A stretch of 64,000 nt of DNA from a virus (IMGVR_UViG_3300037358_000003:37773-101772), one strand, 5' to 3'; shown: positions 51,036 through 61,455, counted from the stretch's first letter. The notes: generated by a model from the sequence alone, not told the origin. Translations and numbers: made by a program.

Positions 51036-51623
51036 TTACATGTTGCGTAGCTGATTTGCTGGTGGGTTGCGAATGTATTCAAGAACCCGCACGTCTTCAT
51101 CTGTTGGTGGGAGTCCTTCAATCTCGCGCAAGTAAGCATGACCGACTTTACGTTCTAGGTTCGGATTGCATATTTGACAGAGCAACCCACGCCAACATTC
51201 TGAACACGAGATTTTACGGCCAGGATGCTCGCATCCATGGCGATGGTCAATGTGGAATGCTTCGCTAACGTCTTCCGGACGTACACCACAAATAGGACAA
51301 GCACCACTCTCTATGGCAAGAAGTGCGTCGTAGGTTTCGGGAGGCATGCCGTGCGGCAAAAGAGTGCGATGTCTACGAGATGCCAACACGCACAGATCGC
51401 ATCGACACCCATTACGGTATTTCTGTGGTGACCCGTGAGGCGACCTGCTAGTCTCGTAGCTAGAAGCTCGCACTAGATCCTGTTTATGTGCTGCCGAGCG
51501 ACACTCTTCACAACGACATCCAGCTGAGTACTTTCGTTCTTCGCCATGTGGTGCTGGATTGCACTCAAAACAGAGCTTGTGCGTTCCGCTCGTTTCTCTG
51601 ATTCCACACTCCATACATGTCAT
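51036..51623 (-). CDS. recombination endonuclease VII-like homing endonuclease
   Basis: 195 residues. Four N-terminal zinc pairs (CMECGIRET, LCFECNPAPHG, CRCEECRSAAHK, CRCDLCVLASRR), then the Endo VII core CPICGVRPEDV, HIDHRHGCEHPG, LLCQICNPNLERKVG. Free-standing Endo VII-type genes are common mobile elements in phages. Downstream of the capsid gene after a gap with hairpins; not inside an intron as far as can be seen. Confidence 0.8.
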   Translation of the reverse strand: MTCMECGIRETSGTHKLCFECNPAPHGEERKYSAGCRCEECRSAAHKQDLVRASSYETSRSPHGSPQKYRNGCRCDLCVLASRRHRTLLPHGMPPETYDALLAIESGACPICGVRPEDVSEAFHIDHRHGCEHPGRKISCSECWRGLLCQICNPNLERKVGHAYLREIEGLPPTDEDVRVLEYIRNPPANQLRNM

Positions 51624-51785: not shown

Positions 51786-54700
51786 CTAGCTATCGCTCAA
51801 CGAGGGAGGCGTAGTGCCTATTCCGACCCCCTGAATTCCGGAAATCATTCCGTTCCAGGCCGGGGCGTAGTGGCAAACGAGTTGTTACAGTTGTGTTACA
51901 ACTGGTCACGTCATTTCTGCGTGACTCTTACACTCTCGTGCAAGACCAGACTATATCTTCATCCACTTTCGTGGAGCACCGTACTTAGTCGTTGAACCTT
52001 CCGCAGTGAAGCGGCTCGGCTGCTGATTGTCCATAGCAACTACTTCTTAGAACCGTCACGCACACTTTTTCAAGTCACGTTGTGGTGTAGTTGATTGACT
52101 GGAGTTTCCAGCAATTCTCGGTGTTTGCTTCCGCTCATTGCTGAACGGTGACTCTATTTCTAAAGTGCCAATCTCGAAAGTCGAAGCGTCGTACGTAAAC
52201 TGAACCACGGGCCACTGAACGGCCACGTAATCCTGCGGCAAAACCATGACGCTTGTTTCCGAGACATTGCTGTCAGGAATCGGAAGCGTCTTCTGCCGAA
52301 TCAGCGAGTTTCCCTGGGGAAACCAGGGGTGAACCGTCAACGGAACCTCGCTACCAGTGACCTCATTGAGGATCGAGGTAACAACCGTACCCGTCTTCAC
52401 GCCACCCATCTCGTTCTGACCAATATAAACACGGTAAGCAGAGTTGGCAGCGTTGTTCACGATGGCATTGGAAAGCTGAAGACGGTCGAAACCGTTGATC
52501 CAGACTTCCTCTGGATCGCCCTTCACTGCCTCGTACAGTGAACCAAAAGCCGTCTGGTACTCGGTACCAGGGTTCGTGGTGCTGAACGCAGCGTTGAGGC
52601 GAGTAACGTAACCACCAGAAGCGGCAGTGTTCGTCAGGAGGCCATCGTAGTTATTTGCAACCGCAGACTGATCAGCGCCGCTAGAAGCGACCTCAGGACC
52701 AGAAGCAGGCTGCGACTTGATGTAGCCAACGTTGTACCCGGTACGACCTGAGTACACGAAAGGACCGGTCGAAACCGATCCGACGTACAGGTTGTAACCA
52801 AGGGCGCCGACAACATCGGAACCAACGGTGACCTGAATGGCCTGACCAGTCGCAACAGACACAGAGGCAGCGGCGGTGGCCGGTCCCTGGTGCATGCTGT
52901 AACCGTTCGTGCCCAAAAGGTCACCAGCGTCAGCAGCCACAACAACCCAAGAGGTTGTAGCAAGTGCTGGCGTAGCAACACCAGACGGTGCGACCGATGC
53001 AGAAACGGCAGCAAGAGTGACGGATGCGGGAGTGCCAAGGGCACCGGCATAGCCAGTCTGTGAGCCGCGACCGTAGATCATCAGGCGCTCGTCTAGAAGC
53101 ATGGTCGAATACAAAAGGGCGGTGTTGCTCAGGGATCGAATGTCTTCGACAAGATTGTTACGCGTCCCTGAAACGCGGACCGAGCATTTCTGTCAGTCTC
53201 TGCATGTCTCCATGCAGTTCGGACTATATCTTAATCTGTTTTGTTGTGCTTCGACATATTGCAATACGCATGTGTCGCCTGCACGTTGCTGTACGCATGG
53301 ATACCGCCCCTACTAAGAGGAACGATGTGATCGACATGCAGATAGCCTGGATCGTAGCGGTTTGTGATGGTATCGTCAATTTCCCAGCCACATAGCTGGC
53401 AAATCCAATCATCTAAATCGGCCACAACTTCACGGTCGACTGGACCATCTACCGTCACACCACGTCTACGCAATAAATAAGCCTGAGAATTTGCGTAACT
53501 CTCGCCCGGATGATCTATCCGATATTGGCGAACTCGCTCTCGTTCCTTATCTCTATTGTTGACGTAGTGTTTCCTAGATCGTCGTCTGCTCGCATCTGGA
53601 TCTTTAATCCGTTCCGCAGCAGCGCGGTCTCGTTTCTTTTGACGATTTGTCTCAAGATCGGAGTGGTAGTTGTTTCGACCGCTTTCTAGGTGATCCTCGC
53701 GATTTTCGGCATACCATTTTTTGTTGTATTCTCTGTGGTACGCGAGTCGCTTTTCTCTATCTTTGTACGGCATTGTCAAATCTCTCCTGTCCGAGAGTGT
53801 AGATGGTTGGAGTCAATACGGGGACAGCCGCACCGACCCCAACCAAACCTTTTGTTAAACAGATTCCACGGTGATAGTCTCTGAACCTTCCCCTGTTACC
53901 GGGGCTCGGCTGCTGATTTTCTCTATCATAGCACTTTTCAAACCATCACGCTCGCCATTTGGGGCCACGTTGTGGTGTCTATGCCTACCGAGACGTTCCA
54001 GCAATTCTCGTGGTTATTGCCTGCCTGATCACTCAGACAGCGGACCTCGTTAAAAAGCCCTGGCCTTGGTACTCCAGATTGTTACCCGTTCGACCAACGG
54101 GGCTACGTCATTTCTGCGTAGCTCTGCATGTCGCCATGCAGTTCGGACTATATCTTCACCCGCTATTTGCGGGGCTTCGCGTGTAGTCTCTACGGACTCT
54201 CTGCTTGCGCAGGTTGCCTCGGTATCGTCTCAGGGAGAGTTTCACCGATACAGCGAAGTTTGCAGTCACCTATTGCTAGGCTACAGACCGAATACCAGCC
54301 TGCCATGAAACACTGTCCGACAACGATGTGGTCACGTAATTAAGCGTGACATCGTAACCGGCGTAGCTAATGTACATATTGTTACTCGCTACTATATGTA
54401 TGACCCTTAGTAGCGGCCCGCATCATTTCTGTGCGAGTCTGCATGTCGCCATGCAGATCGGACTATCTCTTAATCTGTAATTTACGTAACGTATTTGTAG
54501 GTATCGCCATCACGAATTTTGCGAATGGAGCTTGTCGGAACGTTATACTTACGTCCGATGGATGCCATTGTCACGCCATCAGGTGCGAATCTGCGGTACG
54601 GTCCATACATCTTGCCGATACCTGCTAGTTCAAAAAACCTCTGAACGGTGTCCTCGTCGGTCATGCCGAGCCGCATTTCTAAGTGCGGTCCACCATCAGT

Positions 54701-55674
54701 ACCCGGTTTTTTCCAACCGATCCAACCTTCACCTTCAAACAATCCGGCCATCCATGCCAGATTTTCTCGTGTCCAATTTTGCGATACCACTGAATTCCCT
54801 CCTGTCAAAGGTGTTAAATAAATGGTTGACGTTAGCGCAGTGACAGCTACGTCAACGCCAACCAAACCGTTATTACAGACTCCGCGTACTTAGTCTCTGA
54901 ACCTTCCTCATAGTGTATCACACCTCAGAGGCTCGGCTGCTGATTTTCTCTATCAATCGCTTTTCAAACATTCACGCACGCCGTTTCCAGCCACGTTGTA
55001 GTGCGATTGCTTAACGAGATGTTCCAGCAATTCTCGCGGTTATTGCCCGTCTATCGCTAGACGGCGACCCCACATAACTGAGGTCCACGAATGTAGCTAA
55101 GCCCACCTGGGCCAGCGTTCGTGGTGGACTCATTGATACCAGGCTGCGTGGTCGTCTGACCACCAGTGCCGGTTCCAGTAAATCCTGATATCACCTTGAA
55201 TCTGCGACTTCCACCCTGTCCCTTTACACGCGGAATGCTGTTACGCAACGGCGTGGGGCGGGGAGTCAGGAGCTTGGCCGGAGCCTCAAGATCGAAGGGA
55301 ATAAGCCCAGTAGCCACAGGGCTAGTAAGCGTCCACTCCTTTGAAAGCACTTCGGAGCGAGCACCGCTCCAAGTGGACTCGGAAACGCTCTTTGCCATTT
55401 CCACATCGTCAAGAGCCTTGCGGACATCACCCGAACGGGTAGTGTTTACGCGAGTTCTCGCAATAGGGAAGGCATTGGCGCGCTCCGTGTCGATTGGGTC
55501 GCCCCACGTCACCTCTCCAGTAATACCAGATACGGTGGATTTGGTCATTTCCTCCACGAACAATTCGTGGCGATCAACCATTTCCGCACGCTCGGTGCTG
55601 GTCAGAGGACGCTTCGGCTCACCCAATCCAGGACCGATGTCATAAAGGGCATCAGCCTTTGGGATTGCATACAT
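51786..55674 (-). CDS. major capsid protein, five exons split by four group I introns
   Basis: Join of 55674-55081, 54374-54297, 54074-54056, 53149-52163 and 51877-51786 gives 1770 nt, 589 aa. Start MYAIPKADAL is set by AGAGG 7 nt upstream. All 5' exons end in U and all introns end in G. Across the joints the protein reads SYIRGP-YISYAG, SVSWQA-EYQGQG, F-EDIRSLSN and EIGT-F-CHYAPAWNG. This matches the order in HK97-fold capsids of actinophages (YLRG, YAGxD, SD-VxW, QGxxDIR, LDERLM). An inserted Ig/FN3-like domain lies after LMIYGRG, near residues 265-350. The frame is read through only after splicing. Splice positions are inferred. Confidence 0.85.
51878..52162 (-). ncRNA. group I intron 4 of the capsid gene, no ORF
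   Basis: 285 nt. P1: exon ACUU with intron AGAGU (U-G at the splice site). P4 region AGAATTGCTGGAAAC, P6 CAGCAGCCGAGCC, P7 AACGACTA ... ATATAGTC, P8 CTCCAC/GTGGA, P9.2 CAGTTG-TAACA-CAACTG. It ends TAACAACTCG. Confidence 0.85.
53150..54055 (-). ncRNA. group I intron 3 of the capsid gene, with HNH ORF
   Basis: 906 nt. P1 exon GGGCU with intron GAGGUCC; P4 AGAATTGCTGGAAC; P7 CAGAGACTA ... ATATAGTCC. The ORF sits in P8, whose stem is TCTGTTT/AAACAGA. P9 is CTGCATG-GAGA-CATGCAG. It ends TAACAATCTTG. Confidence 0.85.
53231..53773 (-). CDS. intron-encoded HNH homing endonuclease
   Basis: 180 residues, inside intron 3. Long basic helical N-terminus (DREKRLAYHREYNKKWY, RRRSRKHYVNNRD) for DNA contact, then CQLCGWEIDD, LHVDHIVPLSRGG and NVQATHAYCN, a compact HNH core. 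Start at 53773 with AGGAGA upstream; a TTG two codons earlier is possible. It likely cuts intronless capsid genes near the exon 3/exon 4 joint. Confidence 0.85.
   Translation of the reverse strand: MPYKDREKRLAYHREYNKKWYAENREDHLESGRNNYHSDLETNRQKKRDRAAAERIKDPDASRRRSRKHYVNNRDKERERVRQYRIDHPGESYANSQAYLLRRRGVTVDGPVDREVVADLDDWICQLCGWEIDDTITNRYDPGYLHVDHIVPLSRGGIHAYSNVQATHAYCNMSKHNKTD
54056..54074 (-). other. 19-nt exon 3 of the capsid gene
   Basis: Encodes EYQGQG plus the first base of the next Phe codon. Seven bases at its 5' end (GAGTACC) pair with GGTATTC at the start of intron 2 as P10, which supports the joint. Confidence 0.8.
54075..54296 (-). ncRNA. group I intron 2 of the capsid gene, no ORF
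   Basis: 222 nt, compact. P1 exon CAGGCU with intron GGUCUG; P5 GTATCG/CGATAC; P7 AGAGACTA ... ATATAGTCC; P8 CCCGC-AAATA-GCGGG; P9 CTGCATG-GCGA-CATGCAG; P9.2 CCCGTT/AACGGG; ends TAACAATCTG. P10 with the 19-nt exon is 7 bp. Confidence 0.85.
54375..55080 (-). ncRNA. group I intron 1 of the capsid gene, with LAGLIDADG ORF
   Basis: 706 nt. P1 exon ACCU with GGGGU; P2 CCGTCTAGCGATAGACGG; P4 AGAATTGCTGGAAC; P6 CAGCAGCCGAGCC; P7 CAGAGACTA ... GATAGTCC. The ORF lies in P8 (TCTGTAAT/ATTACAGA). P9 CTGCATG-GCGA-CATGCAG, P9.2 CGCTACT/AGTAGCG, ends TAACAATATG. P10 ACAU/AUGU. Confidence 0.85.
54482..54790 (-). CDS. intron-encoded LAGLIDADG-type endonuclease
   Basis: 102 residues from GTG at 54790, with GGAGGGAATTCA upstream. 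LAWMAGLFEGEGWIGW is the LAGLIDADG-like helix with the acidic residue; PHLEMRLGMTDEDTVQRF follows as in single-motif enzymes. The C-terminal ASIGRKYNVPTSSIRKI looks like a NUMOD1-type helix-turn-helix. Shorter than usual for this family (about 120-170), so it may work as a dimer or be partly degenerate. Confidence 0.75.
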   Translation of the reverse strand: MVSQNWTRENLAWMAGLFEGEGWIGWKKPGTDGGPHLEMRLGMTDEDTVQRFFELAGIGKMYGPYRRFAPDGVTMASIGRKYNVPTSSIRKIRDGDTYKYVT

Positions 55675-55690: not shown

Positions 55691-57694
55691 TTACGAACCA
55701 ATCCCCGCAATCTTCACTCGCAACGCCTTGGCGCGCTCGTTACATTCGCGACGATAGTTCATGTCTTCATGGGATTTCGCAAGACGCTCATACTTGGCAA
55801 GTTCCAAGTCAAGCGCATCACGCTCAGCACTCTTGTTGATCGCATCCTGTGGACGCGTGCGAACAATCGCACTCGGTGCCGCCATCTTCTCTACGGTAGC
55901 GAGACGTGCGTCACGATCTTCCGCAGACTTCTCCGCAGCCGCAAGTTGCTCTTTCAGACTATCGACCGCAGTAGTTGCCTTTGCGACAGCCTCTTCAATT
56001 GCCTTTGCGACCGCTGCGTTTTCGGCAGCTTCCTTCTTGGCATTCTTCGCAGCCTTGAGTGCCTTCTTGGCAGTCTTGGCGGCTTCGTTTGCTTCGATCT
56101 CTTCGGGCGTCAGTTCAGCCTTGGCAGCGTCGTCAGCGGGTTCCGCAACGGCGTCGTCATCGGCAGCTTCAGCCTCGTCAGCGTCCTCGTCCTCAGCTTT
56201 TACAGCTTCAGCGGACGCCTTGTCCTTCTTCGCCTTCTTAGCGGGCTCCGCAGTGGGAGCGTTGGCCTTGAAAGCCTCAGCGAGAATGCCGACGAGCTTT
56301 TCATCGCGCGCGTCGAGCACCTTCGTAAGCTCGTCAGTTGACATATTCTCAATCTCCTTGGACAGTGCGTCCATGTCTATTTCGTCAGCACTCTTGCTGG
56401 CGTTTTTCTTGGGGTCATCGTCACCGAGTACCCCACCAATGTGATCAGCCAAATCCTTGGCCTTGTCACGTGCCGCAGCGAGTGCTGCAACGGTCTTACC
56501 GGCCAAACGTCGGCCAGCCTTGATTACGACTTCATCATCTTCGTCAGCCAAAGACTTCGCAGCCTCAAGTCCCTCATGGAACGCAAGCTGCGACATCACG
56601 CCGAGCGCATCCGAAACTCCGCACAAAGCCTGAGTGGCTGCGTACGCGTCAAACACGTCGTTGCCTTCGCCCATGGCTACTTCAGTTTGTTCACGGGCGG
56701 CGAACGTGCGGATCAGTTCCGCTGCCGCCATGAGTGCCATGCACGCGTCGGTTGCTGTCTGAGCGTCTACAGCTTCCCACTCTGGGGAGCCAGGGGCGCC
56801 TGGCGCAAGTGTTGGCGTGTCAGCGTCATCGTCGCCAGAAGCGTCGTCAGTAACTTGCGAAGCGGCTGCGGCAAGCGCCGGGTTTGGAGCACTAAACACG
56901 CTTCCATCAGCCTTCGCTGCGTCATCGCTCACCTCAATGTCGAACTTCTTCGCAGCGGCCTTAATGGCGGGCATGGCCTGGTCGCCAAACGGTGACTGCG
57001 ATGCACGCGCTAGTGCGTTGCGAACGTGGGCAGCGTCTTGGATCGGGAAGTGGCGCAGCGAACGTGGCGTGGTCTTTCCGTCAGCGTCGAGCTTGCCGCC
57101 CTTTTCGATATAGGCAAATGCGCTGTCTGGGAGATCGTTCTGGTCGGCGGTGGACTGTGCAGCCTTGTCAACCGTTTCGCGATTCTTGCTGTCGCCCACA
57201 CTGACATTGCCAGCGTCGGCGTCAACAGTGTTGAGATCGTTACCGCCATCGGACTTGCCAGTACCGCCGCAACTATCACATTGCCCCGTGGAATCGGTGC
57301 CCGATCCACCACACGCTGCGCACTTGTCAGCAACGGGGACATCGGCGCCACTTGCGGCCACGCCGGATTCCTTGATTGCAGCGAGTTCAGCAAGTGACTT
57401 TTCAGTGTCGCCGGGCTGTGGCTGTACGCCAGATCCTTGGCACTTCGGACACTTGCGGTGACCGTCCATGATCTTGCCGCTACCCTTGCATGTGGTGCAG
57501 TCGGGGCGCTTGTCGTCGGAAGATTCAGCATCCGTCTTGGCGATCTCTGCGAGCACACCCTCTGTGTCTGTGACGGTTTCACTGCCATCTAGCGACTTGA
57601 GAATAAGCCACTCAGTGCCATTAGCTGGACTTGTCACGGCGTCTACGCGATCAGGGTCGATTTCAAGTAGCTCGGTAATTGCAACATCGGGCAT
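55691..57694 (-). CDS. scaffold-like capsid assembly protein with CxxCxGxG motifs
   Basis: 667 residues. N-terminal PDRVDAVTSPANGTEWLILK. Four DnaJ-type knuckles (CTTCKGSG, CPKCQGSG, CAACGGSG, CDSCGGTG) between residues 65 and 150 likely bind two zincs. Then DSAFAYIEKGGKLDADGKTT and SLRHFPIQDAAHVRNAL, a DUF6582-like segment. The last 250 residues are Ala/Glu/Lys coiled coil, as in scaffolds. Lies between protease and capsid genes. A chaperone or scaffold role in capsid assembly is likely. Confidence 0.75.
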   Translation of the reverse strand: MPDVAITELLEIDPDRVDAVTSPANGTEWLILKSLDGSETVTDTEGVLAEIAKTDAESSDDKRPDCTTCKGSGKIMDGHRKCPKCQGSGVQPQPGDTEKSLAELAAIKESGVAASGADVPVADKCAACGGSGTDSTGQCDSCGGTGKSDGGNDLNTVDADAGNVSVGDSKNRETVDKAAQSTADQNDLPDSAFAYIEKGGKLDADGKTTPRSLRHFPIQDAAHVRNALARASQSPFGDQAMPAIKAAAKKFDIEVSDDAAKADGSVFSAPNPALAAAASQVTDDASGDDDADTPTLAPGAPGSPEWEAVDAQTATDACMALMAAAELIRTFAAREQTEVAMGEGNDVFDAYAATQALCGVSDALGVMSQLAFHEGLEAAKSLADEDDEVVIKAGRRLAGKTVAALAAARDKAKDLADHIGGVLGDDDPKKNASKSADEIDMDALSKEIENMSTDELTKVLDARDEKLVGILAEAFKANAPTAEPAKKAKKDKASAEAVKAEDEDADEAEAADDDAVAEPADDAAKAELTPEEIEANEAAKTAKKALKAAKNAKKEAAENAAVAKAIEEAVAKATTAVDSLKEQLAAAEKSAEDRDARLATVEKMAAPSAIVRTRPQDAINKSAERDALDLELAKYERLAKSHEDMNYRRECNERAKALRVKIAGIGS

Positions 57695-58221
57695 TAGTTA
57701 CTCCTAAGTGCAGCCAGGGCTTCTGGCGTAGGCGTCCCGCGCTTAGCGCGGCCTTGGGGACTTAGCCCGTTCAGACGCTTGGACTTGATTAGATCCCAGG
57801 TTGGCGAATCCCACTGAACAGCCATAACCCAGTCTCCGTCTTGTATGGTCTTTGCGATCCCGTCGTCACCTTCGATGACCCAATCAGGACCGCGATGTAT
57901 GCCGCTCTCAACGACGGTGCCGTGTCCCTCAGTGCCGTCCTGATGTTGCAGGCCGATGGAACGCGATTTAGACGTGAACGCCCAGCACGCTTTCTCGACA
58001 GCTGTCCGACCAGCGAAGTCGATATGTCCGTCAGCAGCAACACCCTTGTCGGACTTAGAGTGTGGGTATGCCAAACCAACCGTGACCATCGACTCTTCGA
58101 CGGACTTGAAGATGGCACACGCAGCAACATCATCTGAATCCGCTGGCAATTCCTTGGTAACCGATTCGTCGTCAGGCTCGACCGTAATCTTCAGTCGAAA
58201 GTTCGCACTGGGCATCTTCAC
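57694..58221 (-). CDS. prohead protease, XkdF-like
   Basis: 175 residues. ACWAFTSKSRSIGLQHQDG and GTVVESGIHRGPDWVIEGD, then DGDWVMAVQWDSPTWDLIKSKRLNGLSPQG are the XkdF/Peptidase_U35-like blocks of head maturation serine proteases. It should trim the scaffold or capsid during maturation. Start overlaps the next gene's stop; it lies two genes after MuF-region genes. Confidence 0.8.
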   Translation of the reverse strand: MKMPSANFRLKITVEPDDESVTKELPADSDDVAACAIFKSVEESMVTVGLAYPHSKSDKGVAADGHIDFAGRTAVEKACWAFTSKSRSIGLQHQDGTEGHGTVVESGIHRGPDWVIEGDDGIAKTIQDGDWVMAVQWDSPTWDLIKSKRLNGLSPQGRAKRGTPTPEALAALRSN

Positions 58222-59251: not shown

Positions 59252-60295
59252 TTATGCAACCAGTACGTCCAATTTAGAGAAGTCACCAGCGTTGACTTCG
59301 TGTTCCCATATGTGAATCACATCGAAGCCGTTATCTCGGTAAAACGCGTCCTTGCGTGCGTCTTTTTCGGGAATGCCTGGCAGCGTGTGCCAGTAATCTC
59401 CGTCAACCTCAATGATTGTCTGACCAACTAATAGATCGGGCGTGAACCTTCCGAACTGCAAATACTCGTCATACAACAAATGGCGCTGGCGGAGTTCTTT
59501 CGCAACAATTCGTTCGATGCTAGATGTTTTGCGACCCATGTAGCATCTGCGAGAACAGTAAATCCTGTAGTCGTTAGATGGCACGACTTCAAATACCGCG
59601 CCGCAGTGGGCGCACGTTTTGACAATCCGCTCAACTCTCGTACCAAAGAACGTGCCGTTCTTGGCTTCCCAATAACATTCTGGACTGCAATATTTGCGAG
59701 GATCTGTTTCGCGAGTTTCGACTTCTAGGCCACACTGTTCGCATGTGACGATTTTGCGCGGCAGTGTATTATTGCCAGGTTTACCTGTTACGCCTTGCGT
59801 GTGTGGCCGTGGCTGTGATCGCTTCTCCGCTAAACACCCATCACAGAACCGACGCTTTGTTGGAAGAACGACATCACACGCTTCGCAGCGTCTCTCAACC
59901 CGCAACGCCTGCGATGCGCATTCTCTGTTGCAATAGGCTCGTCCGTTTGAGTTCTTGCTGAGTTCGCTGATCTTTCGGATCAATGGCGCATCGCAGGTCG
60001 AGCATCGCACCTCTACTGGTGGGTGCAGCGTCCGCAGCGGCTTATCCGCATGCACATCTCCGGTTCGTTGCTTGCGTCTGTAGTGACTATTACACAATCC
60101 ATCGCCATAGCACGGAAGCGGGCAATCATCAACGCTGCAATAATTGCGAACGATCAGTGACCCAATCGGACTATTGTCCCTAACATCACCCGTCAATCGC
60201 CAGCGCTCATAGTGGGTATGGCACCACCCACGGGCGTCAACTGGATTGGGGCAGTCTTCCACGCTACAGACTTTGTCTCTTGACTTTGTTGCCAT
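59252..60295 (-). CDS. Vsr-like homing endonuclease with multiple zinc fingers
   Basis: 347 residues from MATKSRDKVCSVEDC, with AGGAGG at 5-nt spacing. Residues 10-230 hold at least six Cys pairs (CSVEDCPNPVDARGWCHTHYERW, CEQCGLEVETRE, CAHCGAVFEVV). The C-terminal 100 residues have RQRHLLYDEYLQFGRF, PDLLVGQTIIEVDGDYWH and GFDVIHIWEHEV, the Vsr/DUF559-like nuclease pattern with D, E and H residues. Long free-standing endonuclease in the head region. Confidence 0.75.
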   Translation of the reverse strand: MATKSRDKVCSVEDCPNPVDARGWCHTHYERWRLTGDVRDNSPIGSLIVRNYCSVDDCPLPCYGDGLCNSHYRRKQRTGDVHADKPLRTLHPPVEVRCSTCDAPLIRKISELSKNSNGRAYCNRECASQALRVERRCEACDVVLPTKRRFCDGCLAEKRSQPRPHTQGVTGKPGNNTLPRKIVTCEQCGLEVETRETDPRKYCSPECYWEAKNGTFFGTRVERIVKTCAHCGAVFEVVPSNDYRIYCSRRCYMGRKTSSIERIVAKELRQRHLLYDEYLQFGRFTPDLLVGQTIIEVDGDYWHTLPGIPEKDARKDAFYRDNGFDVIHIWEHEVNAGDFSKLDVLVA

Positions 60296-60332
60296 AATTC
60301 CTCCTGCGAAGAGGTTCCATTGTATCAAACCC

Positions 60333-60458
60333 TGACTCGCACGAACGCAGTTCGCAGCAACGAACATGCGAGTCAAGAAAATGCCCAGCGGGGGCGATGT
60401 GGTCGTCAGTGCGGGAGGTCACGGCACGACACTGCATCGTGAACCGCAACCGCTGGGC
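60333..60458. ncRNA. two large hairpins between MuF and endonuclease genes
   Basis: Hairpin 1: TGACTCGCA (60333-60341) with TGCGAGTCA (60367-60375), 9 bp. Hairpin 2: GCCCAGCGG (60383-60391) with CCGCTGGGC (60450-60458), 9 bp, enclosing CGATG/CATCG and GTCGT/ACGAC to form a rod. No gene in 60296-60462. Could stop transcription after MuF or mark an endonuclease target. Confidence 0.55.
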
Positions 60459-60462
60459 AAAC

Positions 60463-61455
60463 CTATGATGCGTCAGAGTCTGCGTCTACGCTGTCACCAG
60501 ACGTGTCTGTAGTGTCGTCTGAGCCGCTAGAAGTAGTGACGACGGGCAGCATGGCGCACCGACAATTTGGATGAATAGGTGGCATCGCCTCATCGTCGTC
60601 TATGTCGTACTGCGTGTTGCCATCGTCAGACAGATCAAGGCACTCCTGACAGGCGTCGTCCTCGGTCAAGAGGGTATATTTGCCAATGTCAGCAGCCTGG
60701 TACGAATCCTGCGTAGCCATGCTCATCATGCGAGCAGTTTCTGTATTGGCAATCAAATCAGCACGTGAATCACTGCCAACCATGTCAGCAATGTTCGCAC
60801 TCAACGTGTCTACCGAGTCGCCAGACGCAAGCGATTGAGCTATCTGTGACTCAATGCGATCCATGTTCGTTTGCGTGATGCCATCGAACGTGTACTGAAG
60901 TGCAGACATGATGTCTGTCCAGCCACCAAGCTTTGTCAGGTCAGCGGCTTCGGCCCATCCTGGCTCCCATGAGTCCCAATCAACTCCAGCGGTCAAATTC
61001 TCTAGCGTCTTATCAATGCCAGCAGTCGGGATCTGTCCCATGGCGGCATGTACGCCAGCAACGTAACTATCGCCAGCCAATCCACGCAACAAGTTCTGCA
61101 AGTCTTTTGACGTTGCGATGGGTTGATTAGGCATCGCACCTTGAGCCGCTTGCTGCGCTGGCGTCAAGTTTGTACTGTCGCCAGCAGCCTTCTTGGCGGC
61201 ATCGTACTTCTTCTTGGCACGCGCAACGATGGCGGGTAGCTCGGACTTGAGCTGATCCTTGAGTGCGGCTGCAATCTTGTCGCTATAGTACGCGACGATT
61301 TTGTCATGCAAAACGTGGTTCGGGTGTTTGCTCCACGCCGAACCAGACGACGCTTTCGCAGCTTTGACCAATCGCATGATCTCATCTTCGACCATGGCGA
61401 TCTCTTTGTTGATCTCGCTCCGTGCAGCCTCGGTCAACGCATCAACAATCGTCAT
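60463..61455 (-). CDS. MuF-like head morphogenesis protein
   Basis: 330 residues. Helical N-terminus (EINKEIAMVEDEIMRLV). The MuF core follows: ADLIANTETARMMSMATQDS, LTEDDACQECLDLSDDG and PPIHPNCRCAMLPV with the conserved HPxCRC. It joins portal and capsid assembly. Thr/Asp/Ser-rich C-terminal tail. The portal gene is expected just upstream (beyond or near the right edge). Confidence 0.85.
   Translation of the reverse strand: MTIVDALTEAARSEINKEIAMVEDEIMRLVKAAKASSGSAWSKHPNHVLHDKIVAYYSDKIAAALKDQLKSELPAIVARAKKKYDAAKKAAGDSTNLTPAQQAAQGAMPNQPIATSKDLQNLLRGLAGDSYVAGVHAAMGQIPTAGIDKTLENLTAGVDWDSWEPGWAEAADLTKLGGWTDIMSALQYTFDGITQTNMDRIESQIAQSLASGDSVDTLSANIADMVGSDSRADLIANTETARMMSMATQDSYQAADIGKYTLLTEDDACQECLDLSDDGNTQYDIDDDEAMPPIHPNCRCAMLPVVTTSSGSDDTTDTSGDSVDADSDAS

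Follow-up and report, generated by a model that had tools for sequence, protein, structure and literature searches.

Four group I introns and a 19-nt exon in a predicted phage major capsid gene, with recurrent intron insertion in related capsid genes

Group I introns of phages have been described mainly in nucleotide and DNA-metabolism genes, with up to three in a single gene (PMC11878797), and single capsid-gene introns are known from phages LittleE and Tuc2009 (PMC3706429). In mycobacteriophage LittleE (Cluster J), an actinobacterial phage, a group I-type intron with a LAGLIDADG ORF lies in the major capsid gene, and its splicing has been shown by RT-PCR (PMC3706429). Several group I introns per gene, with demonstrated splicing and exon skipping, occur in orf142 of Twort (Landthaler and Shub 1999 as cited in PMC11878797) and in DNA polymerase and terminase genes of Bastillevirinae (PMC11878797); in these accounts, they number at most three per gene and interrupt tail, polymerase or terminase genes rather than capsid genes. 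In phage SIOphi, exon skipping was found at 47% (PMC11878797). Among eukaryotic viruses, the major capsid gene of the giant virus Faustovirus E12 comprises 13 exons, five group I introns with homing endonuclease ORFs and one very short exon of 13 nt (PMC6247863), but it also contains spliceosome-like introns and is unrelated to the gene described here. Mirusviruses, which have an HK97-type capsid protein, likewise show a strong enrichment of introns with homing endonucleases in their virion-morphogenesis genes, although these introns are spliceosomal and the viruses eukaryotic (PMC12768974).

Here we analyse a viral capsid gene predicted to be split by four group I introns, in contrast to the one of LittleE. 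A preliminary description of this DNA called such splitting very unusual, which slightly overstates its rarity in view of the three introns per phage gene (PMC11878797) and the five in the faustovirus capsid gene (PMC6247863). In the openly licensed literature, we found neither a phage gene described as carrying four introns nor capsid genes described as the hotspot of a phage intron lineage.

Exons, joints and capsid identity

The window, which is the whole 64,000-nt stretch of DNA analysed, comprises bases 37773-101772 of a 101,772-base IMG/VR virus record. Its capsid frame spans 55674-51786 on the minus strand and is cut by four group I introns, with exon borders set by the U-G rule, the terminal G of the intron and comparison with intronless homologs:

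55081..55674 (-): exon 1 of the major capsid gene, 594 nt, aa 1-198; ATG at 55674, with AAAAGAGG before the ATG
54297..54374 (-): exon 2, 78 nt
54056..54074 (-): exon 3, 19 nt, GAGTACCAAGGCCAGGGCT; the same 19-nt exon occurs in the relative L037
52163..53149 (-): exon 4, 987 nt
51786..51877 (-): exon 5, 92 nt including the stop

Joined, the exons (594+78+19+987+92 nt) encode 589 aa plus a stop with no internal stops, and unspliced read-through hits a stop after 7, 6, 7 and 35 aa of introns 1, 2, 3 and 4, respectively. Intronless single-ORF capsid homologs from IMG/VR (L006-L018 and others) are 62-78% identical to the joined protein, and all four joints are gapless in the alignment, as in the stretches RGP/YISYAGYDV, WQA/EYQGQG/FED and EIGT/FCHYAPAWNG (slashes mark joints); predicted joint-spanning peptides of the joined protein are SVSWQAEYQGQGFEDIR and IGTFCHYAPAWNG. 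The preliminary description had proposed a five-exon gene with a 19-nt exon, phase-1 joints and a continuous 589-aa frame, and had named intronless homologs mismatching the joined exons as grounds for abandoning it; the homologs match at all four joints, so that each of these points is borne out and the 589-aa version is correct. A fourth 5' splice site at TCGACTT, 15 nt upstream (exon 4 of 972 nt, product of 584 aa), was considered and rejected, since the EIGT segment is present in homologs; the relative L020 has a different intron exactly at this position.

The capsid protein has no match in a Pfam search, and it matches phrog_13692 (E 1.4e-93), a PHROG without assigned function. An AlphaFold model of the intronless homolog L009 reached pLDDT 80 with a 74-sequence alignment, which was used in place of a 9-sequence one (pLDDT 34), and its best Foldseek matches in the PDB are the HK97-fold phage capsids of SU10 (E 6e-11), SPO1 and HK97 (1ohg, E 2.4e-7). 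Judged by this model, the split gene is that of an HK97-fold major capsid protein of a tailed phage. A head-gene context is supported by the gene's position in the head module, after a minor head protein and a prohead protease encoded upstream:

57694..58221 (-): prohead protease-like gene (S78_2/XkdF), Pfam 3.6e-14
60463..61455 (-): Mu F-like minor head protein, Pfam 1.2e-13, PHROG 2.5e-24

Two other proteins are encoded in this region. One of 667 aa (55691-57694), adjoining the capsid gene upstream, combines a CXXCXGXG zinc motif resembling that of DnaJ with a charged C-terminal part and is perhaps a scaffold fusion; the other, of 374 aa (59252-60376) and situated among the head genes, has zinc-ribbon repeats and a DUF559/VSR-like endonuclease domain and is possibly another free-standing homing endonuclease. 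In phage GenBank records a close DNA match was absent, and protein matches showed only 26-28% identity. Capsid relatives in bacterial genomes (about 37-46% identity) come mainly from Streptomyces, Actinomadura, Amycolatopsis, Frankia and other actinobacteria, which makes actinobacterial hosts likely for this clade.

Ribozyme features and endonucleases of the introns

The four group I introns claimed in the preliminary description are recovered by the Rfam model RF00028 (Intron_gpI; gathering threshold 50 bits), a covariance model that recognises the conserved P3-P8 core and gives four matches above the gathering score, all on the minus strand (50.8-70.4 bits; E 7.6e-16 to 5.9e-10), at 54439-55090, 54124-54306, 53200-54064 and 51927-52173. 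With the exon borders above, the introns are:

54375..55080 (-): intron 1, 706 nt; site RGP/YIS, phase 0; P10 of 5 bp; Rfam 70.4 bits
54075..54296 (-): intron 2, 222 nt, without ORF; site WQA/EYQ, phase 0; P10 7/7; Rfam 50.9 bits
53150..54055 (-): intron 3, 906 nt; site GQG/FED, phase 1; Rfam 50.8 bits
51878..52162 (-): intron 4, 285 nt, without ORF; site IGT/FCHY, phase 1; Rfam 66.9 bits

All four have the U of the 5' exon end paired with a guide G (P1) and a terminal intron G. Consecutive P10 pairs number 5, 7, 3 and 1 for introns 1-4, the recomputed value for intron 2 and the 19-nt exon agreeing with the 7 of 7 given originally; in intron 4, P1 is short (4 bp) and P10 almost absent. Across the introns of the clade taken as a set, P10 pairing with the own 3' exon exceeds that with swapped exons (permutation p ~ 5e-4, in a run in which one relative's splice site was off by one base and the window introns were unaffected). 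A clade consensus from 15 introns contains 73 pairs, 41 of them with compensatory changes, and 94.9% of consensus cells are paired, compared with 29-38% in controls with partners slid by 1-3 columns. P7, which lies outside the 73-pair consensus, covaries in four versions (GACU/AGUC, GAUC/GAUC, GAAC/GUUC and GACC/GGUC).

The P4 string AGAATTGCTGG, attributed at first to the cores in general, is absent from intron 2, whose 5' half is of another type. Intron 2 is a chimera: identity to all other introns is 40-47% over this 5' half, whereas the 3' half reaches 73-76% with introns 1 and 3, a difference that suggests recombination between introns of the capsid gene.

Introns 1 and 3 have ORFs in their P8 loops, introns 2 and 4 lack any homing-endonuclease ORF, and a free-standing endonuclease gene lies 162 bases past the capsid stop:

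54482..54790 (-): P8-loop ORF of intron 1, LAGLIDADG-type, 102 aa; phrog_5046 1.2e-8, weak Pfam LAGLIDADG_3 match (E 0.059)
53231..53773 (-): P8-loop ORF of intron 3, HNH homing endonuclease, Pfam HNH 6.8e-12
51036..51623 (-): free-standing endonuclease VII-like (HNH) gene, Pfam Endonuclease_7 1.1e-9

By tblastn comparison with L020, the ORF of intron 1 is apparently a shortened LAGLIDADG remnant that lacks an internal part of its 183-aa counterpart in L020 intron a; the HNH ORF of intron 3 looks intact. The free-standing endonuclease VII gene is a possible homing partner that could mobilise an ORF-less intron. Within the clade, four kinds of endonuclease occupy the same P8 loop of introns with similar cores: HNH in window intron 3, GIY-YIG in L037 a and L021 143, endonuclease VII in L021 246B, and LAGLIDADG-like ORFs (weak by Pfam) in window intron 1 and L020 a. 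The GIY-YIG type ORF of the first L019 intron (L019:5205-5919) is frameshifted in appearance.

The shortened look of the intron 1 ORF, together with a rearrangement in the relative L021, might indicate that the introns have degenerated or retain only part of their activity, that a working capsid comes from another gene or a co-infecting phage, and that this copy is dying. We regard such decay as quite improbable, because an open frame runs through each of the five exons, the 19-nt one is exact, neither the U and G at the splice sites nor the P7/P9 elements are damaged, and covariation is strong.

Introns in relatives and across IMG/VR

Among relatives, which are metagenome contigs, the same capsid gene contains four introns in L019, three each in L020 and L037, and at least two in L021. 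With the window, this gives 16 introns (17 if an odd partial copy in L021 is counted) at 12 distinct sites, of which WQA/EYQ is shared by the window and L037, GQG/FED by the window, L019 and L037, and YST/MLL by L020 and L021. The insertion sites lie mostly in the more conserved stretches of the capsid (mean information 3.27 versus 2.57 bits, p 2e-5), which is expected of homing targets. Many close relatives have intact capsid genes at the same sites. In the record that contains the window, the capsid gene accounts for every RF00028 match with E up to 0.01, and in the records of L019, L020, L021 and L037 all RF00028 matches likewise map to the capsid region. Two long relatives without introns, of 86 and 82 kb, gave no RF00028 match. 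On these sequence comparisons, introns have repeatedly targeted the capsid gene among the relatives, an aspect absent from the preliminary description.

L037 carries the same 19-nt capsid exon (GAATACCAGGGTCAAGGCT; approximately L037:7459-7477), with introns at the same two sites. Its first flanking intron differs in type from window intron 2, and for this reason the micro-exon probably arose twice, independently in the window and in L037. Inheritance of introns site by site was ruled out, since introns at the same site are not those most alike: at WQA/EYQ, L037 b and window intron 2 are 47% identical in the 5' half. Sites have thus undergone invasion or conversion on more than one occasion.

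Two irregularities were seen in L021. At L021:3490-4480 a capsid exon and the 5' half of an intron are partly duplicated in tandem, the second copy following an intron end that fits no joint; this may be a real rearrangement or an assembly chimera. At L021:3412-3430, a GIY-YIG intron at PTP/LRN would end in A instead of G if joined as in homologs.

This suspicious duplication and the metagenomic origin of the records raise the question of whether the interruptions are assembly or binning artefacts in chimeric contigs. Such an origin is extremely improbable, given that each of the four joints in the window follows the splice rules to the exact base, that joining there recovers a conserved protein, and that the same kind of structure occurs in five independent records.

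The lineage extends beyond this clade. A scan of IMG/VR for the intron core string AATCAGCAGCCGAGYC gave at least 120 stretches, and 71 non-redundant upstream exons were classed. Capsid families are the largest identified host-gene class among the 71 upstream exons listed, with host-gene counts being approximate and some exons having no recognisable domain; ribonucleotide reductase, tape measure, DNA polymerase and DnaB are few among them. Matches among the stretches listed include at least 14 in all to Pfam capsid models, at least six to PHROG 13692, and others to further PHROG major-head families. Several distant members of the capsid family found in the core scan are interrupted near residues 246-250 and 528-543, and the best 80 capsid relatives beyond the close clade appeared intronless, in a list biased toward uninterrupted genes. 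BLAST of a clade intron against phage GenBank records gave no match, and the matches obtained with intron 2, to T4-like and other phages, were all short.

Further loci from the scan are of interest in their own right. T7-like major capsid genes are split by introns of the same lineage at L105, L117, L155 and similar loci, and PHROG 27239 ('major head protein', 163 positions) seems to cover only the first, N-terminal exon of such genes. In the phage contigs L170, L218, L194 and L201, two or three cores of this lineage lie in or near one head gene region.

Proposed origin, splicing and exon skipping

The best explanation, and in our judgement a very likely one, is serial homing of a mobile group I lineage into conserved capsid sites, with removal of the introns by self-splicing. 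A phage intron lineage would home again and again into conserved capsid stretches, four of its members would have entered the present gene successively, and the 19-nt exon would be what remains between two neighbouring hot sites. Each intron is predicted to fold its own ribozyme, cutting after the U of the P1 U-G pair and after the terminal G, and the five exons would then ligate to give the 589-aa capsid protein. The sequence itself shows that the exons are continuous, how the introns are built and covary, what the capsid protein is, and that such introns recur in relatives; homing as the route of gain, splicing in infected cells and exclusion of competitors by the endonucleases are what we infer. 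Weak points of the explanation are the weak P1 and P10 of intron 4, the truncated look of the intron 1 endonuclease, the metagenomic origin of the relatives and the possibly chimeric L021.

The preliminary description also held that splicing must proceed in the right order and could act as a control point. A forced order through overlap of P10 and P1 in exon 3 was ruled out: within this exon, the P10 of intron 2 takes up nt 1-7 and the P1 of intron 3 uses nt 15-19. The two helices can therefore coexist without imposing an order, and each intron has its own core and guide. The control-point role is speculation that finds no support in the sequence. In its fuller form, this proposal would have the introns tolerated because splicing gates capsid output, for instance in response to the GTP level, through translation or by timing, so that the four introns work as an ordered switch or a regulatory brake. 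It accords with the need for capsid late and in high amount, with a 'molecular switch' published for other phage genes (PMC11878797), and with the confinement of all introns of these phages to one gene. We nevertheless consider such gating unlikely, since many close relatives have intact capsid genes, the sites and number of introns vary among phages as expected for parasites, and the disjoint pairings in exon 3 force no order.

Under serial homing with self-splicing, a more concrete expectation concerns exon 3 itself. At the micro-exon, the two guides are cross-compatible: the intron 3 guide can form 4 bp with the 3' end of exon 2, compared with 5 bp with its own exon, and the intron 2 guide can form 5 bp with the 3' end of exon 3, compared with 7 bp with its own. 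Because the intron 3 guide can thus also pair with exon 2, some transcripts are predicted to skip exon 3 and yield a dead, truncated product of 230 aa, a concrete prediction given the skipping documented in Twort orf142 and SIOphi. More tentatively, and with doubt prevailing, conserved capsid segments might be the preferred long-term niche of the whole lineage across several HK97-type families, where serial homing would repeatedly make micro-exons, endonucleases would strike competitors' capsid genes during mixed infections, and alternative splicing of micro-exons may set capsid output.

For annotation, gene callers give only fragments of such split capsids. For the biology of these phages, a major structural protein would rely on four ribozymes and a 19-nt exon, with a dozen insertion sites known among relatives. 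The clade offers a natural series of 0, 2, 3 and 4 introns, suited to asking what load of self-splicing introns a very highly expressed gene can bear, how a 19-nt exon escapes being skipped, and whether introns serve as weapons in phage competition.
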